Positions 7,113-56,565 of a stretch of DNA of 64,000 nucleotides are shown here, piece after piece. This DNA is from Azonexus hydrophilus (lineage in GTDB: Bacteria > Pseudomonadota > Gammaproteobacteria > Burkholderiales > Rhodocyclaceae), in the NCBI RefSeq assembly GCF_905120355.1, contig NZ_CAJHOB010000003.1, positions 1-64,000 of the forward strand. The letters are read 5' to 3'. Both the position numbers and the translations under genes were made by a program. Position 1 is the stretch's first letter, and each line of letters begins with the position of its first letter. The notes under the pieces are model-generated. The model was not told where the DNA came from. It worked only from the letters and a program-made list of their open reading frames with translations, and searched no databases.

Positions 7113-7119
7113 AGCTGCC

Positions 7120-7824
<705 letters not shown>

Positions 7825-7873
7825 TCAGCAGCATGCATGGACGCAGCCGGAACGCTCGAACTTACCTGCTAAT

Positions 7874-38109: not shown

Positions 38110-38880
38110 ATGAAAGCCGTCATTCTTGCCGGGGGTCTAGGCACCCGCATCAGCGAGGAATCCCACCTCAAACCAAAACCGATGATCGAGATTGGTGGCA
38201 AGCCGATCATCTGGCACATCATGAAGATGTATTCCGCGCACGGCATCAACGATTTCATCGTTTGCCTCGGGTACAAGGGCTACGTGGTCAAGGAATATTT
38301 CGCCAATTATTTCCTGCACATGTCGGACGTGACCTTTGACATGCAGAACAACCGGATGGAAGTGCACCAGCAACATGCCGAACCCTGGCGGGTGACGCTG
38401 GTGGATACGGGCGAAAACTCACAAACCGGAGGACGTCTACAGCGCATCAGCCACTTCCTTGATCCGGAAGAACCGTTCTGCTTCACCTATGGCGACGGGG
38501 TATCCGACATCAACATCACCGCCCAGATTGCCTTCCACCGTCGTCATGGCCTGCCCGCCACAGTCTGTGCCGTACTCCCGCCGGGGAGATTTGGCACGCT
38601 GGACATTCAGGATGACCGGGTCTGCGGCTTCCAGGAAAAACCCCACGGGGAAGGTGGCTTCATCAACGGCGGTTTCTTCGTGCTGCAAAAAGAAGTCATC
38701 AGCTTGATTGAAAACGACAATACACCTTGGGAGAGTACTCCCATGCGCGAACTTTCCCGCCAGGGAAAACTGGCCGCCTGGCAACACGACGGTTTCTGGC
38801 AACCGATGGATACCCTGCGGGACAAGATGCTGCTGGAAAGTCTCTGGCAATCGGAAAAGGCCCCCTGGAAGATATGGTAA
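38110..38880 (+). CDS. rfbF: Glucose-1-phosphate cytidylyltransferase
   Basis: 256 aa from an ATG at 38110, 9 bases after AGGA; a TTG at 38101 is a worse choice. The nucleotidyltransferase motif [17 protein letters not shown] and [12 protein letters not shown] are diagnostic. It forms CDP-glucose from CTP and glucose 1-phosphate, step 1 of CDP-3,6-dideoxyhexose synthesis (ddhA equivalent). It opens a 16-kb plus-strand sugar island with many overlapping genes. Confidence 0.95.
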
Positions 38881-39944
38881 ATCTGCCGATCACCCCCTCT
38901 TTCTGGCGGGGAAAACGAGTATTCCTGACCGGCCACACAGGCTTCAAGGGTAGTTGGCTGGCCCTCTGGTTGCAACAGCTTGGAGCCCAAGTCACCGGCT
39001 ACGCCCTGCCTCCGACCACCACACCGAGCTTATTTGAACTGGCCGGGGTGGCCAAGTACATGCACTCAATCTTGGAGGATATCCGCAACCCCGCCGCCCT
39101 GCAGCAGGCTTTGGAGACGGCTAGGCCCGAAATCATCCTGCACCTAGCGGCCCAGGCCCTGGTCAGCGACGGCTACACAGACCCGGTCGGCACCTATGCC
39201 ACCAATGTCATAGGTACCATCAATCTGCTCGAACAAGCCAGGCAACTCTCGGATGTTAGGGCTATCGTCATCGTCACCACGGACAAGTGCTACGAAAACC
39301 TGGAAAGCACCCACGCCTACGTGGAAAGCGATGCTCTGGGCGGGCACGACCCATACAGCAGCAGCAAGGCCTGTACGGAAATTGTTGCCGCATCCTGGCG
39401 CCGCTCCTTCTTCACCTCAGGACAAGCAGCCATTGCCACGGCTCGAGCAGGCAACGTAATCGGCGGTGGCGACTGGGCCCCGCATCGCCTAGTCCCCGAT
39501 CTGCTCCAGGCCTTTACCAAAGGGGAAGAAGCCCGCTTGCGCAATGGTCAGGCCGTACGCCCCTGGCAACACGTACTCGAACCCCTGGCGGGCTATCTGA
39601 TCCTGGCCGAGCAACTCTGGGATGACCGCAGCCGGGCCTGTGCCTGGAACTTCGGTCCGGAGCTGGAAGACTGCGTCAGCGTTGCCGAATTGGCTGAGCT
39701 CCTGGGGCGTCTCTGGCCCCGGGGCGGCCGCCACACAATACAGGCTTCACCCTTGCCCCATGAAGCCGGACTCCTGCGTCTGGACGCCAGCCGGGCAAAA
39801 CAGCTACTCGGCTGGAAACCCCGCTGGCACCTGAAAGAAGCCCTGCGCCAGACCGTAGAATGGCACCAGGCCTGGCTTGGCGGTTCAAGTATGGGAAACT
39901 TCTGCCGACAACAAATCGAACGCTACTCCCACACCGACACATGA
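38874..39944 (+). CDS. rfbG: CDP-glucose 4,6-dehydratase
   Basis: 356 aa from an ATG at 38874 inside the end of rfbF, with GGAAG upstream. It is an extended SDR: NAD motif [10 protein letters not shown], then TTDKCYEN and the catalytic YSSSKACTE. It makes CDP-4-dehydro-6-deoxyglucose (ddhB equivalent). The stop overlaps the rfbH start (ATGA). Confidence 0.94.
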
Positions 39945-41254
39945 ACGAGAACAAAGAACGGCAGGCGATCCTGGATCAGGTACGTGTCTATGCCGAAAAG
40001 AGACTTTCGCCCCCGCAATTCCTTCCTGGTCAGAGCACAGTCCCTCCTTCGGGTAAGGTACTGGGGGCTGAGGAATTCGTACATATGGTGGACGCCGCCC
40101 TGGATGGCTGGCTCACCACCGGGCGTTATAACGAGGCCTTCGAAGCAGGGCTGGCCGGATACCTGGGGGTAAGCCACGCGCTGACCTGTAATTCTGGTTC
40201 CAGCGCCAACCTGCTGGCCCTCTCGGCCCTGACTTCACCCATCCTGGGGGCCCGTGCCCTGCAAGCCGGAGACGAAGTAATCACCGCCGCTGCCGGATTT
40301 CCCACCACGGTCAACCCCATTCTCCAGAATGGGCTCGTCCCGGTATTCGTGGATTCCCACATTCCCACCTATAACCCGACGCCAGCCAGCATCGAGGCCG
40401 CCATTGGGCCACGAACCCGGGCCATCATGATGGCCCACACTCTGGGAAATCCGCTGGAAATGGAAGCCATCCGAGGGATCGCCGACCGTCACGACCTGTG
40501 GCTGGTGGAAGACTGCTGTGACGCCCTGGGATCTCTGCATAAAGGACGCAAGGTGGGTGGCTGGGGCCATATCGGCACCCTCTCCTTCTACCCTGCCCAC
40601 CACATCACCATGGGTGAAGGCGGCGCTGTTTTCACCCAGGACGCGATGCTGAAACGGGCCATCGAGTCCTTCCGGGACTGGGGCCGGGATTGCTGGTGCA
40701 ATCCCGGCTGCGACAACACTTGCGGCAAGCGCTTCGACTGGCAGCTAGGAGAACTCCCGGCCGGCTATGATCACAAGTACGTATACTCCCATGCTGGTTA
40801 CAACCTCAAGATCACCGACATGCAGGCCGCCCTAGGGCTGGCCCAATTGAACCGGGTCGACGGCTTCTGCCAGGCGCGCCGCGAGCATTTCGCCTACTTG
40901 AGCCAACGCCTGAAGGGGCTGGAAGAGCTCCTGATCCTTCCCGAAGCTACGCCGGAAAGCGATCCAGCCTGGTTCGGTTTCCCCATCACCCTGAGCCCGG
41001 ACGCCCCCTTCAACCGGGTAGATCTACTGCGTTTCCTGGACCAGCGCAAAATCGGCACCCGCCTCCTGTTCGCCGGCAACCTGATCCGGCAGCCCTATTT
41101 CGCCGGGCGCCAGTATCGGATCGCCGGCACCCTGGAAAACGCGGAAACCATCATGCAGCAGACCTTCTGGGTCGGCGTCTGGCCCGGACTGGGACAGGAT
41201 CAGCTCGACTACATTGCCAATTCCCTTGCCGATTTTTGTGGCACGAATTTCTGA
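39941..41254 (+). CDS. rfbH: CDP-4-dehydro-6-deoxyglucose 3-dehydratase (E1, RfbH/DdhC)
   Basis: 437 aa. A PMP-dependent, [2Fe-2S] enzyme that removes the C3 hydroxyl. Two family hallmarks are visible. A His replaces the usual PLP lysine ([14 protein letters not shown]). The cysteine spacing C-x57-C-x-C-x7-C matches E1 exactly (second Cys of EDCC, then CWC, then the Cys of NTCG). The partner reductase E3 (RfbI/DdhD) is not in the window, so an outside reductase is needed or the E1 intermediate is used differently. Confidence 0.93.
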
Positions 41255-41262
41255 GGCTCACC

Positions 41263-42753
41263 ATGACCCGACCTCTTTTCATCTTCGAGATGGCCAACAA
41301 TCACATGGGCGACACGGCCCATGGGATCGCCATCATTCATGCCATCCGGGAAGCTTGCACAGGCTTCGACGAATTCGACTTTGCCTTCAAGCTCCAGTAC
41401 AGGGATCTGGACACCTTCATCCACCCCAGCTTCAAGGGCAGGGATGACGTGAAATATGTAAAGCGCTTTGAAGAAACCCGGCTTAGCCACGCCCAGTTCG
41501 CCAGTCTGCTGGACACCATGCGGAAATGCGGCTTCAAGACAGTCTGCACGCCCTTCGACGAGCCCTCAGTGGACTTGATCGAAGCTCAGGGAATCGAGGT
41601 GATCAAGATTGCCAGTTGCTCCCTCACCGACTGGCCCCTGCTCGAACGCATTGCCCGGAGTGACAAGCCGGTGATTGCCTCCACCGCAGGAGCCACCCCG
41701 GAGGAGGTAGACGATGTGGTGAGTTTCTTCCTGCACCGTGGCAAGCAGCTCACCATCATGCACTGCGTCGCTGAATACCCGACCCCCGCTGCCCATCTGC
41801 ACATCCGCCGCATTGATGCTCTACGCAGCCGCTACCCGGAAGTCCAGGTCGGCTTCTCGACTCATGAACCCCCCGACGAGACTGAGCCGGTCATGCTGGC
41901 GCTGGCCAAGGGCGCCACCGTTTTTGAAAAGCATGTGGGCCTGCCATCTGAGCACTACAGTCTGAACGCCTATTCCGCCAATCCTGCCCAGATACGCAAC
42001 TGGCTCGAAGCTGCACGACGTGCCTTGACACTGTGCGGCAGCGAAACTTGGCCTGCAGCGACCACCGAAGAGGCCGCCAGTCTGGAAAGCCTGCGGCGCG
42101 GCGTGTTCCTGACCCGGGACCTGCAACCCGGGGAAACAATCCCCGACGACGCTGTCTGCCTTGCTTTCCCCCCGGCCCCCGGTCAGATTACTGCGAACCA
42201 ATGGTCCAAATACACCCGGCACATTGCCCTCCAGCCCCTCAAGGCCGGCTCGCCCCTGATGGCCGAAATGGTGGAAACCCACCGGGAGCGAGAACACGTG
42301 CTGGATACCGTGATGGCTGTGCGGCAACTGCTCCAGGATGGGAACATCGTAGTCCCGGGAAAATCAGACCTGGAAATCTCCCATCACTACGGCATGGAGC
42401 ATTTCAAGGAATTCGGGCTAGTGATGATCACCGTCGTCAACCGGGAATACTGCAAGAAACTGATCGTCATGCTCCCCGGCCAGACCCACCCGGAGCAGCA
42501 CCACAAACAAAAAGAGGAAACCTTCGTGATCCTGCACGGGAGCATGACCTTGTGGCTGGATGGCAAGCAACGAGAGGCGAACCGGGGAGATGTGATTACC
42601 GTCCAGCGGGGTGTCCGGCACAAGTTCTACTCCCGGGAAGGCGTCGTGTTCGAGGAGATATCCTCTACCCACTACACCGATGATTCCATTTATACCGATC
42701 CTGCGATCACGGCCAATCCGCGACGCAAAACCATGTTGACCTACTGGCTGTGA
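41263..42753 (+). CDS. NeuB-family synthase fused to SAF and C-terminal cupin domains
   Basis: 496 aa. Residues 5-260 form a NeuB TIM barrel that condenses PEP with a sugar aldehyde: FEMANNHMGD, TPFDEPSVDLIEAQGIEVIK, IASCSLTDWPLL, HCVAEYPTP and FEKHVG. Residues 275-340 look like the SAF domain. Residues 345-490 form a cupin with candidate metal ligands His409, His413/His414, Glu418 and His453. No NeuA/CMP-sugar synthetase is present nearby, so the product and its activation are unknown. The cupin may act as an isomerase that feeds or processes the NeuB reaction (inference). It starts 9 bases after rfbH. Confidence 0.83.
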   Translation: MTRPLFIFEMANNHMGDTAHGIAIIHAIREACTGFDEFDFAFKLQYRDLDTFIHPSFKGRDDVKYVKRFEETRLSHAQFASLLDTMRKCGFKTVCTPFDEPSVDLIEAQGIEVIKIASCSLTDWPLLERIARSDKPVIASTAGATPEEVDDVVSFFLHRGKQLTIMHCVAEYPTPAAHLHIRRIDALRSRYPEVQVGFSTHEPPDETEPVMLALAKGATVFEKHVGLPSEHYSLNAYSANPAQIRNWLEAARRALTLCGSETWPAATTEEAASLESLRRGVFLTRDLQPGETIPDDAVCLAFPPAPGQITANQWSKYTRHIALQPLKAGSPLMAEMVETHREREHVLDTVMAVRQLLQDGNIVVPGKSDLEISHHYGMEHFKEFGLVMITVVNREYCKKLIVMLPGQTHPEQHHKQKEETFVILHGSMTLWLDGKQREANRGDVITVQRGVRHKFYSREGVVFEEISSTHYTDDSIYTDPAITANPRRKTMLTYWL

Positions 42754-42755
42754 CC

Positions 42756-44561
42756 ATGCGCGTTGCCGATTACCTGATGCACCGCCTCGCCGAGGCGGGT
42801 GCCGAACATGTTTTCCTGCTACCAGGCGGGGGAGCCATGCATCTCAATGACGCCCTGGCCTGCGAACCCCGCTTGGTGCCCGTGCCCTGTCACCACGAGC
42901 AAGCCTGCGGCATCGCCGCTGAAGCCTGGGGCCGGGTGAGGGAAAGTTTTGGGGTCTGCATGGTGACTACGGGTCCCGGTGCCACTAATGTCATCACCCC
43001 GGTTGCCGGCGCCTGGATCGAATCCGTGCCGATGCTGGTCATCTCCGGCCAGGTAAAGCGCCCAGACCTGCTGGCGGGTCGCCCCTTGCGCCAGGGAGGT
43101 GTTCAGGAAGTGGACATCGTGCCCATGGTGAAGTCGATCACCAAGTATGCAGTCACCCTCGACGATCCTAAACAGGTCAGCTATCACCTGGAGCGTGCGC
43201 TCCATGAAATGCTCGAGGGACGCCAGGGTCCGGTCTGGCTGGATATCCCCCTGGATGTTCAAGGCGCCCCCATCGACCCCGCCGACCTTGTCGGCTTCAC
43301 CCCACCATCGGTGGAAGCCGCCGGCCTCAAGACTGAAGCAATGCAACTGATGGCCTTGATCGCCAAAGCTGAGCGCCCCCTGCTGCTAGCCGGCCATGGC
43401 GTGCGCCTGTCCGGTGCCGCCCAAGCTTTCTTGGCCCAGGCCGAAAGGCTGCAGATTCCTGTGGTCACTACCTGGAATGCCCTTGACCTGCTCCCCTGGG
43501 AACACCCTCTACATGCCGGCCGCCCCGGTGTGGTGGCCCTGCGCAGCGGCAATTTTGCAGTGCAGAACTGCGACCTGCTGATCAGCATCGGCTGCCGCCT
43601 GGACAATATCATCACCGCCTACAACCCGAGGGGATTCGCCCGAGCTGCCAGGAAGGTGGTAATCGATGTGGACGCCCATGAGATAGAAAAGCTCGACATG
43701 GATCTGGAGCTTGCTATCGTGGCCGATGCTGCACGGATTCTGGATGCCCTGGCGCACCAGCCCCTGCCAACGGAGCGATCAGATCCCGGCCCCTGGATCC
43801 AACGCTGCGCCGACTGGAAGCAACGCTATCCAGTCAATGATGGCCGACCTTTTCCGTCGACCGGCCCTATCAACCATTACCAATTCGTCTCCGCCCTGGC
43901 TGACGCCCTCCCACCCGACACCATAGTCGGCACAGGCAGCTCCGGGCTGGCCGTGGAAGTGTTCTACACGATCTTCCGCAACAAACCTGGTCAGCGGGTA
44001 TTTCTAACGTCAGGCCTTGGCTCCATGGGTTACGGTCTGCCAGCTGCCATCGGCGCCTGCCTTGCCAATGACAGCAAACCCATGGTGGCCGTGGAAAGCG
44101 ACGGCAGCCTGCAACTCAATCTTCAGGAGTTGGCCACCCTGGCTGCCCAGCACCTGCCCATCAGCCTGATCATCATGAACAATGGCGGCTACGCCTCCAT
44201 CCGCAACACCCAACGCAACTATTTTGCGGGCCGTTATATCGGCACAGGCCCAGAAGCCGGCTTGATGCTCCCCGACCTGGAGAAAATTGCAGCCACCTAC
44301 GGACTCCCTTTCGCACGCATCTCGGACGCGGCAGAACTCCCCCGGCTGAAAGAACTGCTGGCCAGCCCCGGTCCCCGCCTGATCGACATGCAGCTGACTC
44401 CGGAGGAAACCCTGGCCCCCAAGGTGGCCGCCCTGCCCCAGGCCGACGGCGCCATGCTTTCCATGCCTCTGGAAGATATGTCCCCGCTCCTGCCCCTCGA
44501 ACAGCTACAGGCGGAAATGCTCATTCCCCTGAGCCCAGCTTCCCTGGCCGCCCGTCACTGA
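42756..44561 (+). CDS. Thiamine-diphosphate enzyme, acetolactate synthase / YerE-like
   Basis: 601 aa from an ATG at 42756; a GTG at 42750 overlapping the upstream stop is possible. The activating Glu is in CHHEQACGIAAEAWGR. The ThDP/Mg site is ESDGSLQLNLQELATL...NNGGY. Its position right after rfbFGH recalls YerE of Yersinia, which transfers an acetyl unit from pyruvate to CDP-3,6-dideoxy-4-ketoglucose to make the branched octose yersiniose. That function is inferred from context. There is no small regulatory subunit (IlvN) nearby, against a role in valine synthesis. Confidence 0.82.
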   Translation: MRVADYLMHRLAEAGAEHVFLLPGGGAMHLNDALACEPRLVPVPCHHEQACGIAAEAWGRVRESFGVCMVTTGPGATNVITPVAGAWIESVPMLVISGQVKRPDLLAGRPLRQGGVQEVDIVPMVKSITKYAVTLDDPKQVSYHLERALHEMLEGRQGPVWLDIPLDVQGAPIDPADLVGFTPPSVEAAGLKTEAMQLMALIAKAERPLLLAGHGVRLSGAAQAFLAQAERLQIPVVTTWNALDLLPWEHPLHAGRPGVVALRSGNFAVQNCDLLISIGCRLDNIITAYNPRGFARAARKVVIDVDAHEIEKLDMDLELAIVADAARILDALAHQPLPTERSDPGPWIQRCADWKQRYPVNDGRPFPSTGPINHYQFVSALADALPPDTIVGTGSSGLAVEVFYTIFRNKPGQRVFLTSGLGSMGYGLPAAIGACLANDSKPMVAVESDGSLQLNLQELATLAAQHLPISLIIMNNGGYASIRNTQRNYFAGRYIGTGPEAGLMLPDLEKIAATYGLPFARISDAAELPRLKELLASPGPRLIDMQLTPEETLAPKVAALPQADGAMLSMPLEDMSPLLPLEQLQAEMLIPLSPASLAARH

Positions 44562-44565
44562 CCCC

Positions 44566-45597
44566 ATGCGTACTTCAGCCTGCCCCTGCTGCGCCAGCCC
44601 GGCCGAGGACTCAGCCAATACTCCGGCCTACACCCAATGCCGACAATGCGGGCACCGCTGGCGTGTGCCTGTAAAGCCCACAGAACGGCAGTACTACGAA
44701 ACCCTGGTGGCGCGCAACGATCCCCATACCCCCTGGTTCAAGCGGAAGATTGCCGAACGAACTGCTGCCCTGATCCCTTTGCTCATCCCCCGGGTTCGAC
44801 GCATCCTGGAAGTAGGTTGTGCCGAGGGGGAACTGGGCAGAGCCATCAAAGCACACTCCCCGCTTGTCTACGACGGGGTGGAACTGTCCAAGGATGCAGA
44901 GCTGGCCCGGACAAAATTGGACCAAGTATTCCGGACTCCGGTGGACCAACTGGATAGCGCCCCTTACGAGCTGATTGTTTCCTTCCACGTATTGGAGCAC
45001 ATCGCTGACCCCGGGCAGGAACTCCAGGCCTGGGCGGCACGGCTAGCCCCGGAAGGGACGTTGCTTATCGAGGTTCCCAACCAGGCCGGCCACCCACTGC
45101 TCGCTAATGATCTGAACCCAGAACATCTGCACCAGTTTTCTCCCGCCTCCCTGGCAGTCCTGCTCGCCAGCCAGGGCTTTTCCATTCAAACCCTATCCCT
45201 AGGACATTACGAATCACCTGTCTATCCAGATTCCATCAGGGTCCTAGCCCAGCGCCAGTTTCAGGCAGAGCGACAGCAGGCAGATTTGCTGCAGCGTTTC
45301 CGTGCCAGACTCCCTGGGCCATGCATTGCCTATGGTATCGGCGGGGATTTCCTCAATTACGTGGCGCCTGTGGCAGAGTATTTGGAGATACAGGCGCTGG
45401 TTGACTCCGATCCGGGCAAGCGTGGCCTACAGTTTGGCCGCTACCAGGTGGAAGCCTACGATCCGGAGCACCATGGCGCCGTCCCCATTCTCATCTGCTC
45501 AATCAAGTTTGGAGCCAACATCCGGCAGCAGTTGCTTTCCATGGGAGTCGCCCCGGAACTCATCATCGGCCTGGAAGAGATTTATGAGGCGCCCTGA
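44566..45597 (+). CDS. Zinc-ribbon class I SAM methyltransferase with C-terminal Rossmann-like domain
   Basis: 343 aa. An N-terminal zinc ribbon (CPCC...CRQCG) is at residues 6-28. The SAM domain has ILEVGCAEGELG (about 80-91) and a HVLEHIADP post-motif. A C-terminal Rossmann-like domain (about 240-343) has YGIGGDF and LVDSDPGKRG. This layout matches sugar C-methyltransferases of deoxysugar pathways (TylC3-like). It could methylate the ketosugar intermediate of this island. Starts 5 bases after the ThDP gene. Confidence 0.8.
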   Translation: MRTSACPCCASPAEDSANTPAYTQCRQCGHRWRVPVKPTERQYYETLVARNDPHTPWFKRKIAERTAALIPLLIPRVRRILEVGCAEGELGRAIKAHSPLVYDGVELSKDAELARTKLDQVFRTPVDQLDSAPYELIVSFHVLEHIADPGQELQAWAARLAPEGTLLIEVPNQAGHPLLANDLNPEHLHQFSPASLAVLLASQGFSIQTLSLGHYESPVYPDSIRVLAQRQFQAERQQADLLQRFRARLPGPCIAYGIGGDFLNYVAPVAEYLEIQALVDSDPGKRGLQFGRYQVEAYDPEHHGAVPILICSIKFGANIRQQLLSMGVAPELIIGLEEIYEAP

Positions 45598-46666
45598 CCC
45601 CATCCTTGCTGAAGACCTGTCCCAGATTATCGCGGCTAATCTCCCCTGGGAGGACTTACATGGCTGTCACATCCTGGTGACTGGCGCCTCCGGTTTCATC
45701 GGCGGCCATCTGGTGGAAGCCCTGGCCTGGCTCAACCGCTGTCACCCGCAAGCAGGGCTACACATCCATGCCATGGCCCGTACTTCCGAGAAACTGCAGC
45801 AGCGCCTCCCCTGGCTTGACATCCCCGGAGAAGTCAGCCCTCTGATCCAAGATGTCACCCAGCCCTGGAATCCGCCCCCCCCCCTGGATATGATCATCCA
45901 CGCTGCCAGCCCTGCCAGTCCCAGGGATTACTTGGCGCGTCCGGTAGACACCATTCTAGCCAACACGCATGGCTCCCATCAGTTGCTGGAGCTCGCCAGA
46001 GCACACCGTGCCCGTTTGCTCTTTCTCAGCAGTGGTGCGGTCTACGGTGAAAACACCTTGAAGATCGACGCCATCCGGGAAACCGATTTTGGCGGAGAAG
46101 ACCCACTGGCACCCCGGGCCTGTTACAGCGAGAGCAAGCGCCTCGCGGAGACCCTGTGTCAGGCCTACCACACCCAATACGGAGTGGATGCAAGAATTGC
46201 CAGGGTCTCCCACTGCTACGGCCCGGGGATGCGCCTGGATGATGGCAGGGCTATCGCCGATCTGTTGTCTGACGTTCTCAACAACCGGGATATCCAACTT
46301 GATTCCGATGGTAACGCTACCCGCCCCTTCTGCTACATTTCGGACACTGTCCTGGGGCTCCTCCATGTCCTGCTCAAGGGTATGCCAGGAGAAGCCTACA
46401 ACGTGGGAGAAACCCAGGAAACCAGCATCCTCGAGCTAGCCCACAAGCTGATCACAGCTGCAGGGCAGCAGGGACATCTGTCAGTCAAGGCCAAGGCCCT
46501 AAACGCGATGGCCCCGGCCGCCCGGAGTTCGGGCCATTTCAATATCGACCGAATCCGCCAGCTAGGCTGGAGCCCCCGCATTAGTCTGGATACGGGATTG
46601 AGCAGAACACTCAGACGGGCAGAGCCTCGGACTGCCAACCTGCGCGAACGCCACCTCCCCCTTTGA
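45584..46666 (+). CDS. NAD-dependent epimerase/dehydratase (extended SDR)
   Basis: 360 aa from an ATG at 45584, overlapping the methyltransferase by 14 bases. The longer frame to 45302 lies over the methyltransferase and is not real. It has NAD motif TGASGFIGGH (about residues 30-39), a substrate-side SSGAVYGEN and the catalytic YSESK. It is predicted to reduce, epimerise or decarboxylate a nucleotide sugar. In this setting it could supply the final ketone reduction after the ThDP enzyme (inference). Confidence 0.85.
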   Translation: MRRPDPILAEDLSQIIAANLPWEDLHGCHILVTGASGFIGGHLVEALAWLNRCHPQAGLHIHAMARTSEKLQQRLPWLDIPGEVSPLIQDVTQPWNPPPPLDMIIHAASPASPRDYLARPVDTILANTHGSHQLLELARAHRARLLFLSSGAVYGENTLKIDAIRETDFGGEDPLAPRACYSESKRLAETLCQAYHTQYGVDARIARVSHCYGPGMRLDDGRAIADLLSDVLNNRDIQLDSDGNATRPFCYISDTVLGLLHVLLKGMPGEAYNVGETQETSILELAHKLITAAGQQGHLSVKAKALNAMAPAARSSGHFNIDRIRQLGWSPRISLDTGLSRTLRRAEPRTANLRERHLPL

Positions 46667-46677
46667 AGACCTCGCCC

Positions 46678-47049
46678 ATGCCCGACCAAAATTCGAAAAA
46701 CACACCTTTAGAGCAGGCATCTACCGGCCCCGATACCGCCGCCCCATCCGACAGCATGGTGTTTTGGCGTCCTGGCCATGTAACCCGCAGTGTCCGGGAA
46801 CGTCTGGCAGGTCAGAAAGCACTGATTATTTGGTTGACCGGGCTAAGTGCCTCAGGAAAATCCACAACCACCTACGAGCTTGAGCAACAGCTTGCCAGTA
46901 AACAACGGCTCTGCTATGTCCTGGATGGCGACAATCTGAGACATGGCATCAACAGGAACCTGGGGTTTTCCCACGCGGACCGTACGGAAAACATCCGGAG
47001 AACAGCAGAAATTGCCCACCTCATGAATGAGGCGGGCCTGGACAACTAA
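46678..47049 (+). pseudogene. Truncated adenylylsulfate (APS) kinase, CysC-like
   Basis: 123 aa against about 200 for intact CysC. It has the P-loop GLSASGKST, then VLDGDNLRHGINRNLGFS and RTENIRRTAEIAHLMNEAGL, all typical. The frame stops straight after AGL (DN then TAA), losing the whole C-terminal half including the lid and the PAPS-site residues. The next gene begins 28 bases later. Most likely a remnant left by rearrangement in the island; a residual function is unlikely. Confidence 0.85.
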
Positions 47050-47076
47050 TCTGCCACTACGAACCTGACCTTCATC

Positions 47077-48243: not shown

Positions 48244-48251
48244 GCTAGCCC

Positions 48252-49178
48252 ATGAATGCACTCACCGATATCCGGCAATCCTATGAAACAGGGAAACTAC
48301 GCAAACAGGACTACATTGAGGCTATCCATGCTCGACATAGGCGCCTGTTCGACTATCCGGATTTCATGGTCGACACCGACGTAGAAGCCCTGCAAATTTT
48401 GCCTGAGGGCATTTATGTCCGCTCCCGCTCCCAGCAGATCGAACTCCTCTTGGATCCCCGGGATCAGCATCTGGTGCCTTACACCCTGATGAACTTCCGG
48501 GCTTACGAAAGCGCCGAGACGGAATTTCTCAAATCCATAACCCAGCCAGACTGGACCATTCTAGATATTGGTGCCAATTGCGGCTGGTACGCCCTGGCAC
48601 TGGCCAGGCAATATCCCACTGCTCAAATCCATGCATTCGAGCCGATTCCAGGTACCCATGATCTCCTTTTGCGCAACATTAGGCGCAACGGCTTCACCAA
48701 TATCCACGCCCACCGCCAGGGCTTCTCGGACCACGAAGGCACCCTGGAATTCCTGTACACCCCCAACTGTTCTGGCGCCACTTCCTTGATCCATGCCGGC
48801 CAACCCGCAGCAGAGGACGCCTTGCAGAAGATTGCCTGCCCGACCAGCACTCTGGATCTCTTTTGCAGCCGGAACTGCTTGGAGCCTCAACTCATCAAGT
48901 GCGACGTGGAAGGCGCGGAATTGATGGTAATGCAAGGGGGAGAAACAACCATTGCCACCCACAAACCAGTAATCCTCATCGAACTGCTGCGGAAATGGGC
49001 ACAGAAATTCGGTTACCACCCCAATGATGTCCTCACCCTACTAGGCCGGCACGGCTACGGGGCCTACACCCTGAAAGAGGGACGGACCGTGTCATGCCAG
49101 GGTATCCACGAAGAAACCCCCGAAACCAATTTTGTTTTCCTACATAGGGAGCAACATCGTTACATTATCCAGCCATGA
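48252..49178 (+). CDS. FkbM-family methyltransferase
   Basis: 308 aa. It has SAM motif ILDIGANCGWYAL (about residues 98-110) and the FkbM signature IKCDVEGAELMVMQGG (about 216-231). FkbM proteins O-methylate sugars and polyketides, and several sit in glycan islands. The gene is AT-richer than the housekeeping genes. The stop overlaps the next gene (ATGA). Confidence 0.88.
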   Translation: MNALTDIRQSYETGKLRKQDYIEAIHARHRRLFDYPDFMVDTDVEALQILPEGIYVRSRSQQIELLLDPRDQHLVPYTLMNFRAYESAETEFLKSITQPDWTILDIGANCGWYALALARQYPTAQIHAFEPIPGTHDLLLRNIRRNGFTNIHAHRQGFSDHEGTLEFLYTPNCSGATSLIHAGQPAAEDALQKIACPTSTLDLFCSRNCLEPQLIKCDVEGAELMVMQGGETTIATHKPVILIELLRKWAQKFGYHPNDVLTLLGRHGYGAYTLKEGRTVSCQGIHEETPETNFVFLHREQHRYIIQP

Positions 49179-50551
49179 ATGAACAAGCCCCTACCCCGGA
49201 TACCCCCCTGCTAACTCTCTGCATCCCGACCTGGAACCGGGCCAACCGTCTATCCCTGCTGCTCGAAAACATTAAACGGGAAATTCAAGGTCTGGAAGAC
49301 TGGATTCAGGTCGTGGTAGCCGACAATGCCTCCAGTGACGACACCTCAGCTGTCGTTGCCACCTCACCACTGACGATTACCTATGGCCGCCAGGAAAGCA
49401 CTGTCGGAATCACCAACAACATCTTCTTTGCGACCTGCACCCTAGCGCGCGGCAGATTTATCTGGATCATCGGAGATGACGACCTGATCGCCCCGGGAGG
49501 TTTGGCGCGCATCCTGGCCTCCCTACAACGAGCAGCAGATATCGACTATCACTATGTAAACTTCTGTGCCATCGACGCCGACTATCGCGATAAAGTCATC
49601 CAACTGATGGGCGGCATTCCCCCAGCATCCGCCATGCAGATCCGCCAATGCGATGAACCGGGTTGGAAACTGCTCGAACGGGCAGAACAGCTGGCCTTCC
49701 TGCCAGGCTACAACCCTTCATCCCTGTTTAGCTCCCTGTTCTGTTATGTGGCAAGCAGGGCATTCTATCTGGAAGCCAGGACTCGGCTGACTCCCTCCAA
49801 TAGCCTGGATGGATCGTCCAGATCTCTGGACGACATGTTCCCCCAGGCCCTGATCACCCTGCCTCACATCATTGGTCGTCCGATAGCCTATATCGGCGAT
49901 CCCTGTGTGCTGCAAGGGGCCCATGCCTGGGAATGGAATAGATACCTGTCCCAGATATCCATCCTCGGCATCCACAAGCTCATGAACTGGATGGCCGGGA
50001 TAGGATTTGACGCAGCCGCCCTGGAACAGATGCGAAACAGTCATGCCCGCACCATCGCCACCAAGCTCCCTCCCATGTTATTGGCACCAGATGGTAACCT
50101 GGGGCTGAATGATGAGCTCAGGAAGCTGATCGCCGATTACACCCAAGTAACCGACTTCTGGCAGATATTCACCTTGCGGATGAAAGCCAGGATGGAAACG
50201 GAATTCATCGCCCGCCAACTGGTCATTGTGCTTGACAAGCTCCAGGAGTGCAGCGGCAAGATCGGCATTCTCGGAGAACGAGCGCTCAAAGAAAAAGTGC
50301 TTGAGCTTTCCCCCAACATACGCACCTCCCTCTCCTGGACTGGTTTTAACGATGGTTCGTGGACCGGACAACGCCAGGAAAATGGCAAATCCTCTACAAG
50401 CCACGGACATCACCTGCGCGACCAGGATATTGATGTCCTGATCCTTGCCGTACATCCGGAATATACCCCCCCTCTGCACACAACATGCTCGCAATATATG
50501 AAACCAGGTAGTTACATCATTGATGCGCAAAGCGTCACCCCGATTAACTAA
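49175..50551 (+). CDS. GT2-family glycosyltransferase with extra C-terminal domain
   Basis: 458 aa. GT-A fold: TLCIPTWNRANRL at the N-terminus, VVADNASSDDT, and the metal-binding IIGDDDLIAPGG (about 99-110). After the catalytic part the C-terminal ~120 residues look Rossmann-like (KIGILGERALKEKVL...VLILAVHPEY), resembling the tail of the two zinc-ribbon methyltransferases in this island. Likely transfers a sugar to the growing glycan or to flagellin. Confidence 0.82.
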   Translation: MNEQAPTPDTPLLTLCIPTWNRANRLSLLLENIKREIQGLEDWIQVVVADNASSDDTSAVVATSPLTITYGRQESTVGITNNIFFATCTLARGRFIWIIGDDDLIAPGGLARILASLQRAADIDYHYVNFCAIDADYRDKVIQLMGGIPPASAMQIRQCDEPGWKLLERAEQLAFLPGYNPSSLFSSLFCYVASRAFYLEARTRLTPSNSLDGSSRSLDDMFPQALITLPHIIGRPIAYIGDPCVLQGAHAWEWNRYLSQISILGIHKLMNWMAGIGFDAAALEQMRNSHARTIATKLPPMLLAPDGNLGLNDELRKLIADYTQVTDFWQIFTLRMKARMETEFIARQLVIVLDKLQECSGKIGILGERALKEKVLELSPNIRTSLSWTGFNDGSWTGQRQENGKSSTSHGHHLRDQDIDVLILAVHPEYTPPLHTTCSQYMKPGSYIIDAQSVTPIN

Positions 50552-50571
50552 GCCCAAGGCAACATACAGAA

Positions 50572-53172
50572 ATGACGCAGCTCAACCAGCCCGCCACCAG
50601 TTTCTACCAGAGCCACCACTCCCCCTACTACATCGTCAGCCCTAATTTTTCGCAGAAATCCTCCGGGCCGCGCATGCTGCACTATCTGTGCCATACCCTC
50701 AACGAGTTGGGCTACGAGGCATATATCACGGCCAAGGCATTCAGCCCTTGGCTACGGACACCAGAGCTCACCCGGGAAATCCGCCTTAAACACAGAGAAA
50801 CAGGCCGCACACCTATTGCCGTTTACCCTGAAGTAACCTGCGGTAACCCCTTGCAGGAACCGGTTGTCGCGCGCTGGATACTAAACAAGGCCGGTCACCT
50901 GGGAGGCCATAGGGAATTCCATCCCGACGAGCTACTGTTCTATTGGGACGAGTGGGTATTACAGGGAGAAAAGAACGCTGACCGCTTGTTTCTGCCCAGC
51001 GTCGACGACAGGGTCTTCAACGATCACGACATCCAATCTGAAGACAGGAGTGGATTCTGCTATTACGCCCACAAATATCTGATGTTCGGCGGACAGATCG
51101 CCGAATCCATCACCCGGGACGGTATCAGCCTATGTCAGGACATACCCCGCACGGCAGAAGAAATTGCCCACATCCTGCGCACCTCCCGAGTGCTGTACTG
51201 CTACGAGCCCTCGAACATCGTGGCCGAAGCCTATGCTTGTGGCTGCCCAGCAATTCTCGTCCAGACCGATTACTTGAAACAGTTTGATTTGAACAGACTT
51301 AAAATTGTCAAAGTCCCCGAGTCCGACATCGATTTTTCATTTATTCCCCCCATCGGGGACCGCCTGAAAGATGCGATGGAGGCAGACAAGGTCAGATCAT
51401 GGGACGCAATAAGGCATTTCATCGACAAGACCCAGGCGGCAGCACGAGCTCACAAGGCTTACGCCGAACAACCAGAGCAGAAGCTCAAGGCTGCCATCAG
51501 CGCTTTTCAGGCCAATATGCTGGTAGAAGCCACAGATATCTTCTCGCCGCTCCTGGACGCCCTGCCGGAAAACCCCCAGCCCCCCGCCTACCTGGCCTTC
51601 ATTTGTGCCGCCCAGGGGCTGGCCCAGGAAGCCCGGGAGTTCATGGACAGGGCCATGGAAATCGCCCCTGACCGGGCCGACCTCAAGGCGGCCCTGGGAG
51701 AGAGCTTCCTGAAGGCAGGCCAGCCCGGGCTGGCCGCCGAATACCTGGAGGAAGCCGTGCACCTCCAGCCGGACATGCTCTCGGCCTACCCGGCCCTGGC
51801 CCGGAGCCTGCACCTGACCCAACAGAGCGATACGGCCCTGGCCCTCCTGAAAGGCGCTGCCCAGATGTCCTCCTCTGCCCAGGCCCACATCCAGACCACC
51901 TTGCTGGAAATACTGGCGGAACAAGGCAATATTGCCGAGTTTTCCCAAGCCTGCCTGCGCTACTCCAACGGGATCGCCGATGACCTCCTGGCGGTGCGCT
52001 GCCTGTCCCGCTTCGATGCCAGTGGCGAACGCCTGGTGGAAGCCCTCGGGGCAGCCCAGGCACGCTTGGCCAGCCAGCTTCCCGGGTTGGGCGAGGCCTC
52101 CGCGCTGCCCATCAAGACGGCCCAGCCCTGGAAGATCGCTTTCCTGACGAGCGACCTGGCCCGGGAAGAACAGCAGAGCCGCCTCAAGGCCCTGCTCAAC
52201 CACCTGCCGCCCGAGCAGTTCGTCACCACCTTGATCATCAACGACCCCCAGGCCGGACTCAGCCATTTCGCCCAGGCCTGCTCCCTGGTGGCCGATCACA
52301 CCCTGGTCATCCACGACCAGGACGACAGCACCGCCCTGGAACGCCTCAACGCCAATCCTGCCGACATCCTCATCGACCTGGACAGCTATGGCCCCGCCGA
52401 CCGCCTGTCCCTGTTCGTGCAGGCCCAAGCCGGGGTGAAACTGCTCTGGGGCGAGGCGCCGATGCCGGCTCTGGCGCCGGACTGCCTGCCCCTGCAGGGG
52501 GAACTACTGGCCGACCAGGCCATGCTTCCCGGCATCATCCTGCCGGGACTGGGCGAGTGCTGCGAGCTGCCTGAATTGCCCATCACCCCGGCCCCCGGCA
52601 CACCTACCCTGGGCTGCCTGACCCCGGCCATCAGGATCGGGCCGGAAGGCTGGCGCCTGTTCGCAGAAGTCCTGCAGGCCAGCCCGGACATCCAGTTACT
52701 CCTGAATCTGATGGACCTGGGCGACAGTGCCCGGGCCTACATTACCCGGCAATTTACCCAGGCCGGCGTTGCCGCCTCGCGCCTGCGCTTCGTCCACGCC
52801 CATACCCGGGAAGCGCTCTGCCAGTACTGGCAGGAGGTCCAGCTAGGTCTGGCGCCGCCCGTGGATGCCGGGGACCAGGCCTTGAGCACCTGCCTCTGGA
52901 TGGGCCGCCCCTTCGTGGCCCTGGCTGCGAGCCTGCCCTGGTCCCATCGTCCCGCCGCCCTGCTCCACTGTGCCGGCGCCTCGGCCTGGATCGCCGATTC
53001 GGCGCCCCGCTACGTGGAGCTGGCAAGCCGCCTGCCCCAGGCCCCCGATCCCAGCCTCCGGGCACGCCTGCGCGCCGCCGGCCTGGATGATCCCGCCGCC
53101 TTCGCCCGGGGGTTTGCCGCCACCATGGCAGACCTGATGCAGACCGCTCCGGCCCCCAGCTCCGCTCCATGA
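50572..53172 (+). CDS. Chimeric GT-B glycosyltransferase - TPR - degenerate OGT-like protein
   Basis: 866 aa. Residues about 18-285 look like a GT-B domain (SSGPRMLHYLCHTLNELG, and the donor-site EPSNIVAEAYACGCPAIL). TPR-like helices follow at about 300-460. The C-terminal ~350 residues resemble the GT41 (SPINDLY/OGT) catalytic half. However, the OGT His motif (SDxxxHPV) reads SDLAREEQQ, and the DPFPxNGGTT motif is replaced by APPVDAGDQALST. That half is probably inactive or specialised. GC content rises sharply near 51.45 kb (47-52% to about 70% in sampled lines), suggesting a fusion of two sources. Confidence 0.75.
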   Translation: MTQLNQPATSFYQSHHSPYYIVSPNFSQKSSGPRMLHYLCHTLNELGYEAYITAKAFSPWLRTPELTREIRLKHRETGRTPIAVYPEVTCGNPLQEPVVARWILNKAGHLGGHREFHPDELLFYWDEWVLQGEKNADRLFLPSVDDRVFNDHDIQSEDRSGFCYYAHKYLMFGGQIAESITRDGISLCQDIPRTAEEIAHILRTSRVLYCYEPSNIVAEAYACGCPAILVQTDYLKQFDLNRLKIVKVPESDIDFSFIPPIGDRLKDAMEADKVRSWDAIRHFIDKTQAAARAHKAYAEQPEQKLKAAISAFQANMLVEATDIFSPLLDALPENPQPPAYLAFICAAQGLAQEAREFMDRAMEIAPDRADLKAALGESFLKAGQPGLAAEYLEEAVHLQPDMLSAYPALARSLHLTQQSDTALALLKGAAQMSSSAQAHIQTTLLEILAEQGNIAEFSQACLRYSNGIADDLLAVRCLSRFDASGERLVEALGAAQARLASQLPGLGEASALPIKTAQPWKIAFLTSDLAREEQQSRLKALLNHLPPEQFVTTLIINDPQAGLSHFAQACSLVADHTLVIHDQDDSTALERLNANPADILIDLDSYGPADRLSLFVQAQAGVKLLWGEAPMPALAPDCLPLQGELLADQAMLPGIILPGLGECCELPELPITPAPGTPTLGCLTPAIRIGPEGWRLFAEVLQASPDIQLLLNLMDLGDSARAYITRQFTQAGVAASRLRFVHAHTREALCQYWQEVQLGLAPPVDAGDQALSTCLWMGRPFVALAASLPWSHRPAALLHCAGASAWIADSAPRYVELASRLPQAPDPSLRARLRAAGLDDPAAFARGFAATMADLMQTAPAPSSAP

Positions 53173-53180
53173 GGCCCACC

Positions 53181-53984
53181 ATGAACGCCAGCCCCCGCTT
53201 CTCCGTCATCGTCTGCAGCATCGAGGCCCTCAAGTTCGCTCGTATCTGCGAGTGCTACACCCATCTGCTGTCCGGCTATCCCCATGAAATCATCGGCATA
53301 CACGATGCCGCTTCCCTCGCCGAGGCCTACAACCGGGGTATCACCCAAGCCAGCGGCGACATCCTGATCTTTTCGCATGACGACTTACTGATTCTCGACC
53401 CTCTCTTTGCCGACAAGATCGTCGACCGTCTGCACACCTTCGACCTCCTGGGCTTTGCTGGCACCAGCAAATTGATCACCGCCACCTGGTTCGGTGCCGG
53501 CCAGCCGCACCTGCACGGCGCCATCGGACACGCCAAACCGGGCGAACCACAACTGGCTTTCAACATTTACGGCGCCGCCACCTGGCCCGTGGTCGACAAC
53601 ATCCAGGCCATCGATGGCTTCTGCATGATCGCCCGTCGCGCCCTGGCAGAAACAGTACTGTTCGACGCCAGCACCTTTGATGGTTTCCATCTCTACGATC
53701 TGGATTTCAGTTACGCCGCGTATCGGGCCGGACACCGGCTTGGCGTGTGCTGCGACATCCCCATCCTGCACGAATCAGCCGGCAATTTTGCCAACCAGCA
53801 TCTGCATTACGCCGAGCGTTTCGTCATCAAGTACGCCGATCAACTGGCCGACACTCGTCCGGAAGAGATTTCCGGCCAACGCCCGGGACGCGGCGCCTTG
53901 CTCCCGGACCACCACGCCCTGCTGCGCGCCTGGCAACCCGAAGTGATGCTACGTGCCACGCAGGCAATGCGACGCAGCTTATAA
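53181..53984 (+). CDS. GT2-like glycosyltransferase (short form)
   Basis: 267 aa from an ATG at 53181 behind GAGG; an ATG at 53169 overlapping the upstream stop is also possible. It has GT-A features: FSVIVCSIEALKF, ASLAEAYNRGI, and an acidic SHDDLLIL in the metal-binding position. A DLDFSYAAYRAG motif near residue 180 is typical of small glycosyltransferases that glycosylate proteins or lipids. It ends the plus-strand island and converges with the OGT gene. Confidence 0.8.
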   Translation: MNASPRFSVIVCSIEALKFARICECYTHLLSGYPHEIIGIHDAASLAEAYNRGITQASGDILIFSHDDLLILDPLFADKIVDRLHTFDLLGFAGTSKLITATWFGAGQPHLHGAIGHAKPGEPQLAFNIYGAATWPVVDNIQAIDGFCMIARRALAETVLFDASTFDGFHLYDLDFSYAAYRAGHRLGVCCDIPILHESAGNFANQHLHYAERFVIKYADQLADTRPEEISGQRPGRGALLPDHHALLRAWQPEVMLRATQAMRRSL

Positions 53985-54022
53985 GTCAGCAGCACTGCAT
54001 TCCTCCGCCGGGCATCGCAGTT

Positions 54023-56401
54023 TCACTGCTGGGCACACCACTTCCGCCACATTCCCCGGAAGGCATTTTCCAGGCTGCGCGCCATTCTCGGCGCATCCAT
54101 CAACGGGCTAGCCCGCATGCGTTGCCGCAGGTTGCCCCGCAGCTTCAGCAAGCGCTCATGGTCATTGGCCAGCGCTACTGCAAGTTCAAAGTAGGCATCC
54201 GCGCTATCGACCACCAGCTCTGACAGCCCCACATTGTCAAGAATGGGCTTGCCCATCCGCGACACCAGCATATCCCCTGGCCAGGTGATGAAAGGCACCC
54301 CCATCCAGATCGAGTCATAGCCTGTGGTGCCACCATTGAAGGGGAAGGGATCCAGACATAGATCGGCTTCGTTGTAAGCATCGAAATAGCCATTGGTCGG
54401 CATGATGCCTTTTATATTCAGCCGCTCCGGGGCGATGCCGTGGCGGCCAAACTGGCCGTGGATGTATTCGATCAGACTACTGTCATCCCCACCGCGGGCC
54501 ACCAAGATCAGGCGACTGTCCGGCACGGCACGCAGGATACGGCTCCACAGCCGGATCGCTCCCTGGCTCACCTTGCGGAAGTTATTCAGGCAGGCGAAGG
54601 TAAACGGGCGCTCAAGGCGCTGGCAGGGCAGCCCTGGCTGGATCGGCACATCCGGAATCATGGTGCGCACCCCATAACAGTGTGGCAATGGCCAGGGGGT
54701 TTCGGTGCACCAATCGCCTTTTTCCAGAACCGGATCAGGCGGAATGAAGATGTAATCCATGGCAGTCATGCCGCTGGTTCCCGGAAAACCCAGCCAAGTG
54801 ACCTGTATGGGTGCCGGCTTGCGCGCCACTGCCAGCAGACGGCTCCCTTCCGTATTGCCATTAAGATCGACCAGAATATCGATCGCATCGGACTGAGTCA
54901 GTTTGGCCAACGCTTCATCGCCCAGCGCCACAACTTCGCGCCATTTATCCGCTCGCTCGTGCGCCATGGTCGTGGTCGAGTCGGACGATTGCGAGTTGAA
55001 ATAAATGACCGTTTCCAGCTGCGTTCGATCCAATTCGCCGAGAAAAGGCACGACAAATGCGGCCACCGGATGGTTGCGCATGTCGGAAGTCAGCCAGCCG
55101 ATGCGCAGACGCCGCTCGGGATCACGATCCCGAGCGGCAAAATTTACCGCTGGCAAAAGGGGCAAGCACAAATTGCGATCGAACGCCTGCGCCGTGGCCA
55201 CAACATCTGCTGCGCGCGTTTCCGTCGAATGCACCAGCGCCCACAATGAATTGGTATACCCAATCTGATTGTTTGGTGCCACCGCCAGCGCCTGACGGAA
55301 CATCGCCAGCGCTTCATCGCTACGCGCCTGGTCGGAATACCAGCTACCCAGGTTGAGCAAGGCATTCACATGCCGTGGGTCCTGCGCCAGCACCGTCTCC
55401 GCCGCCTGGCGCGCTTTGCCGCTTTCCCCCAGTTTGGTATAGACGACGATCAAGCTATTCCATGCATTGAGATTCGCCGGCTCCCGCTCCACCGCCATTT
55501 CCAGATTCTCACGCGCTGCAGCAAGCTGGCCGCGCGTGGTAAACAACAATCCCAGACTCTCCAGAATCCAGTCTTCGGACACCCCCATCTGATGGGCTTT
55601 CTCCAGCACATCAACCGCTTCAACGGCATCTCCAGCCTGCACCAGGGCAATGCCCAGCTTGGCCGTCATTTCCGCAGAGTCCGGGGCGCGCGCCACCGCT
55701 GTCCGGAAAAATGCAGCCGCCTCGTGAAAATTCCCATGCCGCAAGGCAAGCTCCCCGGCCAGATTGAGGGTAGTCGGCAGCTGCGGCACCAGATCAAACA
55801 GTTTTTTTACGCAGCGCTCAGCTTCTTCCAGCAGCTGTTTCTGCAAATAAAGGTGACCGAGCGACAACCAGGCATCCGGATAACGTGGCGCCAGGCGTGT
55901 TGCCTTGCGTAACTGGACCATAGCCTCGTCCAGTTCCCCCAGCTGCTGGTGCGCCAGGCCGAGCAGACAGAAATGTCCCGCCTGCACACCGGGGCGCGCC
56001 ACCACATCCCGCAACACACTTTTGGCCTGCTGCCACTCACCCACCTTGACATAGGCCCCGGCAAGACTGCACAAAACCGCAATATCCTTGGGGGCACGCC
56101 GGCGGGCAGCCTGCAGCACTTCAAGACCTTCCTTCTCCAGGCCGATACGCCCGTACAACTCACCGAGTCGTTGCAGGTAGCTGGCCTGTTCAGGCTGCAG
56201 TTGCACCGCCTGCTCGAAAAACTGCACCGCCGTATCAAGCTGACCAATACCCTGCGCCACTTCGCCCAGACCAAACCAGGCGGCATGCGTTTCTGGCGAG
56301 ATCGTCACCACTTCTTCGAACAACGCCCCCGCAGCCTGGTAATCCCTGTTTGCCAGTTGTTTCTGGCCGCGCGCCAGCAATTGTTTGATCGTGACCGCCA
56401 T
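54023..56401 (-). CDS. SPINDLY/OGT-type protein O-glycosyltransferase (GT41) with N-terminal TPRs
   Basis: 792 aa. About eleven TPR units fill residues 5-385. The GT41 catalytic part follows with intact motifs: TSDMRNHPVAAF (catalytic-site His), QVTWLGFPGTSGM, FACLNNFRKVSQGA, and DPFPFNGGTTGYDSIWMGVPF. Such enzymes O-glycosylate Ser/Thr of proteins in the cytoplasm. Divergent from, and immediately beside, the first flagellin gene; flagellin is therefore the obvious substrate. The gene has the housekeeping composition, unlike parts of the island. Confidence 0.9.
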   Translation of the reverse strand: MAVTIKQLLARGQKQLANRDYQAAGALFEEVVTISPETHAAWFGLGEVAQGIGQLDTAVQFFEQAVQLQPEQASYLQRLGELYGRIGLEKEGLEVLQAARRRAPKDIAVLCSLAGAYVKVGEWQQAKSVLRDVVARPGVQAGHFCLLGLAHQQLGELDEAMVQLRKATRLAPRYPDAWLSLGHLYLQKQLLEEAERCVKKLFDLVPQLPTTLNLAGELALRHGNFHEAAAFFRTAVARAPDSAEMTAKLGIALVQAGDAVEAVDVLEKAHQMGVSEDWILESLGLLFTTRGQLAAARENLEMAVEREPANLNAWNSLIVVYTKLGESGKARQAAETVLAQDPRHVNALLNLGSWYSDQARSDEALAMFRQALAVAPNNQIGYTNSLWALVHSTETRAADVVATAQAFDRNLCLPLLPAVNFAARDRDPERRLRIGWLTSDMRNHPVAAFVVPFLGELDRTQLETVIYFNSQSSDSTTTMAHERADKWREVVALGDEALAKLTQSDAIDILVDLNGNTEGSRLLAVARKPAPIQVTWLGFPGTSGMTAMDYIFIPPDPVLEKGDWCTETPWPLPHCYGVRTMIPDVPIQPGLPCQRLERPFTFACLNNFRKVSQGAIRLWSRILRAVPDSRLILVARGGDDSSLIEYIHGQFGRHGIAPERLNIKGIMPTNGYFDAYNEADLCLDPFPFNGGTTGYDSIWMGVPFITWPGDMLVSRMGKPILDNVGLSELVVDSADAYFELAVALANDHERLLKLRGNLRQRMRASPLMDAPRMARSLENAFRGMWRKWCAQQ

Positions 56402-56475: not shown

Positions 56476-56490
56476 TGGCACGCTACATGC
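56476..56490 (+). promoter_or_regulatory. Sigma-54-type promoter of flagellin 1
   Basis: TGGCACGCTACATGC has the invariant GG-N10-GC (GG at 56477-56478, GC at 56489-56490) and a full TGGCAC -24 element. It lies about 76 bases before the flagellin ATG. Confidence 0.75.
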
Positions 56491-56565
56491 TTAAAACAAA
56501 CCAGGTCCGTGGCACATCGTGCCTGCCAACAGTTGCTATCGAAAATTTCTCCTGAGGAGATTGTC

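Follow-up and report, generated by a model that had tools for sequence, protein, structure and literature searches.

Gastriose, a branched sugar of Mycobacterium gastri, carries a 1,3-dimethoxy-4,5,6,7-tetrahydroxyheptyl branch, and in pathways of the YerE type a YerF-like ketoreductase is expected to act on the branch. According to the text of PMC12247030, YerE removes the carboxyl group of pyruvate and passes the resulting two-carbon unit on to cytidine diphosphate (CDP)-3,6-dideoxy-4-keto-glucose, MygE is the thiamine diphosphate (ThDP)-dependent enzyme of gastriose formation and accepts keto acids from C3 to C8 in reactions with benzaldehyde, and MMAR_2332 is the M. marinum enzyme associated with caryophyllose. 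The M. marinum caryophyllose is described in PMC5706390 as a C4-branched 3,6-dideoxy-4-C-(1,3,4,5-tetrahydroxyhexyl) sugar. Long-branch sugars associated with YerE-like enzymes are already reported from lipopolysaccharide (LPS) and lipooligosaccharide (LOS) (PMC12247030, PMC5706390), and earlier predictions have placed a CDP-3,6-dideoxyhexose in flagellin islands (PMC13317340, PMC4875605). Here we describe an island of 14 genes at positions 38110–56401 of a 64,000 nt stretch of the Azonexus hydrophilus genome (assembly GCF_905120355.1, contig NZ_CAJHOB010000003.1, positions 1 to 64,000; hereafter the window), which is followed by two flagellin genes. From its gene content and its conserved linkage to flagellin we predict that it is a flagellin glycosylation locus, with a CDP-activated, C4-branched 3,6-dideoxyhexose carrying a long chain as the sugar donor, a reading to which we assign a probability of roughly 0.58.

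The first five genes of the island encode RfbF, RfbG, RfbH, a NeuB-SAF-cupin fusion (NeuBc) and a ThDP-dependent carboligase. The initial annotation had presented the combination of CDP-3,6-dideoxyhexose enzymes, a NeuB fusion and a YerE-like enzyme as unrecognised, but it proved to be a widespread block. In a single scan of named genomes, which picks up relatives by the short patterns they have in common with the query and hence yields a sample, 121 NeuBc loci were confirmed and 80 kept. The ThDP gene was located within 1.2 kb of the NeuBc gene in 74 of these 80 loci, and was not found in three. All of rfbF, rfbG, rfbH and the ThDP gene were present together in 50/80 loci, and 37/80 displayed the order F-G-H-NeuB-ThDP on one strand, as in the window, with both counts being depressed by short contigs. 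At 22 ordinary loci of the NeuB family, taken from the same order, no ThDP match was detected, compared with 6/7 NeuBc orthologues (1.5 kb flanks), and the NeuBc-ThDP pair is therefore specific. The NeuBc loci span Pseudomonadota, Actinomycetota (five mycobacteria), Nitrospirota, Spirochaetota, Verrucomicrobiota, Elusimicrobiota, candidate phyla, two archaeal records and others. Within the genus of the window, NeuBc was found in only 9/76 genomes (the window's own included), so the island is patchy; Azonexus hydrophilus ZS02 (locus L055), of the same genus, also carries it. In genome G319, the joined and reversed loci L178 and L179 harbor at 6627–9958 a second ThDP gene (40% identical to that of the window) beside a 345-residue NeuB-like open reading frame (ORF, 28%) in the same island; this could be a form of the pair that lacks the cupin.

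We propose that NeuBc is a phosphoenolpyruvate (PEP)-dependent 3-deoxy-2-ulosonate synthase with a C-terminal domain resembling D-lyxose isomerase. The nearest solved structure of the NeuB half (window 41266–42297) is PDB 3g8r, at 508 bits, which is likewise a NeuB-half protein of this family, but consists of a 350-residue chain lacking the cupin half; its name, a 'probable' spore coat polysaccharide biosynthesis protein E, is probably misleading. A 27-sequence profile of the C-terminal domain matched the D-lyxose isomerase 2y0o with 52 bits (4.8e-13), compared with 39 for quercetinase, and the match covers model positions 350–435 and takes in sequence ahead of the cupin core. The cupin residues H414, E419 and H453 are invariant in 27/27 aligned relatives, while position 412 is Gln in 60/81 aligned sequences, including the window, and His in 21/81. 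NeuBc scored far below the curated equivalog cut-offs for both PseI (137.8 bits, cut-off 340.25) and NeuB (136.2 bits, cut-off 399.65). Its Pro303, invariant in 27/27 relatives, aligns with residue 314 of the meningococcal SiaC chain in 4ipi, by count an Ala in that entry; we take this to be an Arg-to-Ala mutant, in which the wild-type Arg314 would bind the N-acetyl group of the acceptor.

No cytidine monophosphate (CMP)-nonulosonate synthetase was detected above cut-off in the genome, in which the sole CTP_transf_3 protein above cut-off is the CMP-sugar synthetase KdsB; a weaker match on contig 7 stayed below cut-off. Since KdsB is the only such synthetase and NeuBc lacks the acetamide-binding Arg, its product is unlikely to be of the sialic type, and with the missed PseI and NeuB cut-offs a sialic or pseudaminic acid product was discounted. 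These findings also bear on the possibility that the flagellin carries two different sugars, in which case the ThDP enzyme would use pyruvate to form a yersiniose-like CDP-sugar and NeuB would form a nonulosonic acid. This would agree with the use of pyruvate by YerE itself (PMC12247030) and with the NeuB homologues that make flagellin nonulosonic acids elsewhere, for instance in Caulobacter (PMC7591256), but the lack of a matching synthetase and of the Arg, the low equivalog scores and the joint occurrence of the NeuBc and ThDP genes in 74/80 loci make it improbable.

The closest solved match of the ThDP enzyme is 8rph (393 bits), which is JanthE according to PMC12188165, followed by an acetolactate synthase at 257 bits. 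The enzyme is 56% identical to its M. gastri counterpart, and its placement in the YerE-like subclass is based on match scores. The M. gastri locus (L087) contains rfbF, rfbG, rfbH, NeuBc, the ThDP gene, a HAD phosphatase gene, two methyltransferase genes (one of the FkbM type) and a short-chain dehydrogenase/reductase (SDR) gene within 12 kb. There, rfbG and rfbH share a strand, and the opposite strand carries rfbF, a GT2-like gene (recognised by eye), NeuBc, the ThDP gene, the HAD_2 phosphatase gene, a methyltransferase gene and the FkbM gene, followed by the SDR gene; the FkbM proteins of the two loci share 36% identity over 218 residues and the SDR proteins 40% over 341. Judging from species and position, we infer that the ThDP gene of this locus encodes MygE. 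We propose addition at C4 by the ThDP enzyme of the window because M. gastri makes a C4-branched 3,6-dideoxyhexose and has the same NeuBc-ThDP pair. Caryophyllose also shows the pattern that a NeuB-derived branch would have, its second branch carbon likewise being deoxy.

A HAD-like ORF, recognised by a shared PWN motif, is located between the NeuBc and ThDP genes in 21/80 loci, and may represent an undescribed phosphatase family, given that in three of these ORFs tested against Pfam, NT5C matched below cut-off in two and nothing matched in one. Examples from distant phyla are found at L096:11488-12099, L111:11444-12031 and L125:5684-6259. The HAD gene requires 11 changes on the NeuBc tree, and hence comes and goes. 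A switch between Gln and His at cupin position 412 that tracks the HAD gene was considered and rejected (Gln with HAD 12, His with HAD 9, Gln without 48, His without 12).

RfbF, RfbG and RfbH all scored above their curated equivalog cut-offs by wide margins. In an alignment of 63 RfbH sequences including the window, adopted in favour of a strict regular expression (18/65 found), H220 and H221 were conserved in 63/63, as were C251 and C261, with C253 in 62/63; at C257, the fourth cysteine of the window, 20/63 have Cys. The His pair presumably replaces the pyridoxal phosphate-binding lysine of aminotransferases, with the conserved cysteines presumably serving the cluster.

In the predicted pathway, RfbF, RfbG and RfbH would convert glucose-1-phosphate and cytidine triphosphate (CTP) to CDP-3,6-dideoxy-4-hexulose, while the cupin half of NeuBc would supply an aldose, most likely a pentose, which the NeuB half would condense with PEP to a 3-deoxy-2-ulosonic acid. 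This acid may first be made as a phosphate, as suggested by the HAD-like ORF in 21/80 loci and the M. gastri phosphatase. The ThDP enzyme would decarboxylate the 2-keto acid and add the resulting acyl anion to the C4 ketone of CDP-3,6-dideoxy-4-hexulose, and the second carbon of the branch, next to the new carbonyl, would be deoxy because it derives from PEP. The SDR may reduce or epimerise the product, and the methyltransferases may decorate it. Finally, the two transferases with tetratricopeptide repeats (TPR) and the GT2 proteins could place the sugar on Ser/Thr residues of the flagellin centre before export, in the manner of FlmG in Caulobacter. The branch length is a guess; a C5 acceptor would lead to a C7 branch, for which the computed residue mass is 324.142, with 14.016 added for each methyl group. 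In more general terms, NeuBc and the ThDP enzyme could form a two-enzyme machine in which a 3-deoxy-2-keto sugar acid is made only to be decarboxylated and joined to C4 of a CDP-3,6-dideoxyhexose, which would yield sugars of 12 to 14 carbons with no need for CMP-sialic chemistry. Such a machine would be general, occurring across many phyla of bacteria and in some archaea, with its sugar serving as a flagellin modification in Rhodocyclaceae and related Betaproteobacteria; we consider the chances of this wider proposal to be even.

The comparison of gene order in related genomes advised by the initial annotation showed that the linkage to flagellin is conserved well beyond this genome. From the 80 loci we chose 42, of which 41 genomes were searched for flagellin (L054 not included), and found a flagellin-domain match in 31; removal of matches below ~101 bits, many of which look FlgL-like, excluded G304, G321, G330, G332 and G336 and left 26 flagellin-bearing genomes. 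In 16 of these 26, a flagellin gene was located within 32 kb of NeuBc, with 0.79 expected for random positions, and 13 of the 16 linked flagellins were downstream of NeuBc on the same strand, these being from Azonexus- and Rhodocyclus-like genomes, Thauera, four Chromobacterium and other Rhodocyclales. At the level of the order, flagellin was present in G226 and G106 of seven NeuBc regions (30 to 38 kb stretches). The genome GT-UBC 1_9 retains the tail MT2-FkbM-GTtpr-GT2b-OGT at 56 to 67% identity and ending at flagellin, with other genes standing between the sugar module and this tail. The genome of the window (2.88 Mb) encodes two proteins that match GT41, both in the island, and the two other OGT orthologues with ≥43% identity in the 41 genomes are also divergent from flagellin; OGT homologues of 29 to 41% had no flagellin in 1.5 kb flanks or in wider stretches (eight places, seven genomes). 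Because the linkage is conserved, the OGT orthologues are divergent from flagellin and both GT41 proteins lie in the island, flagellin is the likely acceptor. The flagellin glycosylation proposed earlier is thus supported by synteny and OGT context. The sugar module as such is not flagellin-specific, since 10/41 NeuBc genomes, some of them draft, lacked a flagellin match.

This last count is also one of several observations that weigh against the explanation proposed for the locus. The 38 loci outside the flagellin search had no flagellin in their own flanks of up to 10 kb. A general rule that flagellin lies within 32 kb of NeuBc was rejected, as in the later-examined G370 it is located 35.9 kb downstream on the same strand. 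Three loci, L070 (Rhodoferax), L116 (Caenarcanales) and L124 (Myxococcota), entered the set with a nearby flagellin already known; without these, 13/23 genomes are linked, all downstream and on the same strand. The linkage count is pushed down by contig breaks and up by relatedness, and the chance figure treats the genomes as independent, several being close relatives. For the pathway itself, RfbH is partnered by the E3 reductase DdhD/RfbI, and none was found among the island genes, the rest of the genome not being searched. The island likewise has no phosphatase gene, compared with the HAD-like ORF in 21/80 loci and the other type of phosphatase in M. gastri, and isomerase activity may be altered because cupin position 412 is Gln. 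The use of NeuB before the ThDP enzyme is suggested by gene pairing, and according to PMC12247030 MygE was inactive with ketones in vitro under the conditions tried, with MMAR_2332 not yet assayed with one.

The genomes without flagellin also fit an alternative in which the branched sugar is made but destined for LPS or another surface glycan, with the neighbouring flagellins incidental and only the OGT acting on flagellin, with a common donor. Known branched 3,6-dideoxyhexoses occur in LPS and LOS (PMC12247030, PMC5706390), and matches to Wzy_C and flippase-type genes are present on other contigs of the same genome. We consider this unlikely, as the flagellin linkage and the conserved tail in GT-UBC 1_9 speak against it, and as the island has no polymerase, flippase or chain-length gene: the absence of O-antigen polymerase, flippase and Wzz that was remarked upon earlier holds, with no Wzx/Wzy/Wzz domain called in the 14 island genes, which argues against an O-antigen or capsule locus.

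The features of the island and of the adjoining flagellin genes are listed in Table 1. The plus-strand run from rfbF through the methyltransferase, SDR and three transferase genes listed in the initial annotation was recovered with matching domains, as was the SPINDLY-type OGT (TPR and Glyco_transf_41) on the opposite strand, divergent from the two flagellins with 164 bases between the OGT start and that of flagellin A. The one omission from that list was the truncated adenylylsulfate (APS) kinase ORF, which had no continuation in the three forward frames. This ORF of 128 residues is matched by a 199-residue ORF in the L172 island (11786-12385), with 49% identity over 102 residues. The truncation could be a sign of a decaying island that makes no product, but the other island genes are open frames matching their families, and we regard such decay as very improbable. 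The N-terminal domain of GTtpr recurs in relatives, in ORFs of ~1,180 to 1,540 residues that have the sugar module on one side and flagellin on the other, and its profile gave no match to solved structures.

Table 1. Features of the predicted flagellin glycosylation island and the adjoining flagellin genes (window coordinates; SAM, S-adenosylmethionine; GT, glycosyltransferase; MT, methyltransferase; aa, amino acids).
Feature	Position	Strand	Evidence
rfbF, glucose-1-phosphate cytidylyltransferase	38110..38880	+	TIGR02623 equivalog 462 bits, cut-off 300
rfbG, CDP-glucose 4,6-dehydratase	38874..39944	+	TIGR02622 equivalog 471 bits, cut-off 278
rfbH, CDP-6-deoxy-4-hexulose 3-dehydrase	39941..41254	+	NF011936 713 bits, cut-off 423
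NeuBc, NeuB-SAF-cupin fusion	41263..42753	+	PF03102 147 bits, SAF and Cupin_2
ThDP-dependent carboligase, YerE/JanthE/MygE-like	42756..44561	+	three TPP_enzyme domains; HHEQA motif at 46
MT1, SAM methyltransferase	44566..45597	+	PF13489 (Methyltransf_23) 77 bits
SDR, candidate branch-ketone reductase or epimerase	45584..46666	+	PF01370 (Epimerase) 150 bits; start codon by eye
Truncated APS kinase remnant	46663..47049	+	profile positions 2-74 of 152 only
MT2, SAM methyltransferase	47077..48243	+	PF13489 84 bits; PF08484 (C-methyltransferase C-terminal) 22 bits, below cut-off
FkbM-type methyltransferase	48252..49178	+	TIGR01444 104 bits, cut-off 37.7
GT2a, family-2 glycosyltransferase	49175..50551	+	PF00535 36 bits, cut-off 23.3
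GTtpr, 866 aa, candidate flagellin transferase	50572..53172	+	N-terminal glycosyltransferase-like domain, TPRs, weak GT41 C-terminus (PF13844 27.2 bits, cut-off 25)
GT2b, glycosyltransferase	53169..53984	+	PF13712 75 bits, cut-off 27
OGT, TPR and GT41, candidate flagellin O-glycosyltransferase	54023..56401	-	PF13844 163.4 bits, cut-off 25
Flagellin A, 271 aa, probable acceptor	56566..57381	+	PF00669 and PF00700
Flagellin B, 271 aa, probable acceptor	57574..58389	+	PF00669 and PF00700

Both flagellins are matched by their N and C domains alone, in agreement with the lack of large D2/D3 domains noted previously. The Ser/Thr-rich centres also described are real but modest, with 18/50 and 20/50 residues from position 143, and as many or more were obtained in 147 and 54 of 5000 shuffles, respectively. 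The two genes are followed by what we take to be flaG, fliD and fliS, judging from the reading frames. In a search with the consensus patterns of sigma-54 and sigma-28 promoters, the only one-mismatch matches in the window were a sigma-54-like site ahead of flagellin A (56476-56491) and a sigma-28-like site ahead of flagellin B (57471-57497), which may allow for the two flagellins to be switched on at different stages. With two mismatches allowed there were 37 sigma-54-like matches (25.4 expected) and 5 sigma-28-like matches (1.8 expected), so that the weaker matches mean little.

If the proposed pathway is correct, it would explain the source of the chain in long-branch sugars such as gastriose, provide a function for the NeuB family of 3g8r, a structure that has been solved but not explained, and extend the known modifications of flagellin by a very large sugar. 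Among the matches listed in our literature searches there was no paper joining NeuB, ThDP and flagellin, and 'NeuB' is absent from the main text of the review PMC12247030; the same NeuB step may be proposed in a 2019 dissertation by Steitz on sugars with longer branches, to which that review refers. Within these matches, the new part is the union of a flagellin island with a long-branch sugar pathway, together with the proposed NeuB source of the branch.

The YerE-type pathways of yersiniose A, caryophyllose (MMAR_2332) and gastriose (MygE) have in common with the window RfbF, RfbG and RfbH and a ThDP carboligase for which C4 of a CDP-4-keto sugar is the proposed site of action, and the M. gastri locus additionally shares NeuBc, the FkbM methyltransferase and the SDR. 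The window differs from these pathways in adjoining flagellin, in its TPR transferases of the protein-glycosylation type and in having no phosphatase gene in the island. FlmG of Caulobacter crescentus is, as described in PMC7591256, a cytoplasmic flagellin O-glycosyltransferase combining TPR and a GT-B-type domain, with a NeuB-family enzyme in its donor pathway, but it uses pseudaminic acid (PMC7591256), whereas the genome of the window has no CMP-nonulosonate synthetase above cut-off. The flagellar glycosylation islands of Clostridium butyricum (paratose) and of Erwinia and Pantoea (CDP-4-keto-6-deoxyglucose), for which use of a CDP-3,6-dideoxyhexose has been predicted, share RfbF, RfbG and RfbH orthologues or CDP-4-keto-6-deoxyglucose genes (PMC13317340, PMC4875605). 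'Thiamine' is absent from the main text of both reports, and 'NeuB' from that of PMC4875605; the predicted branch is the new element of the window.

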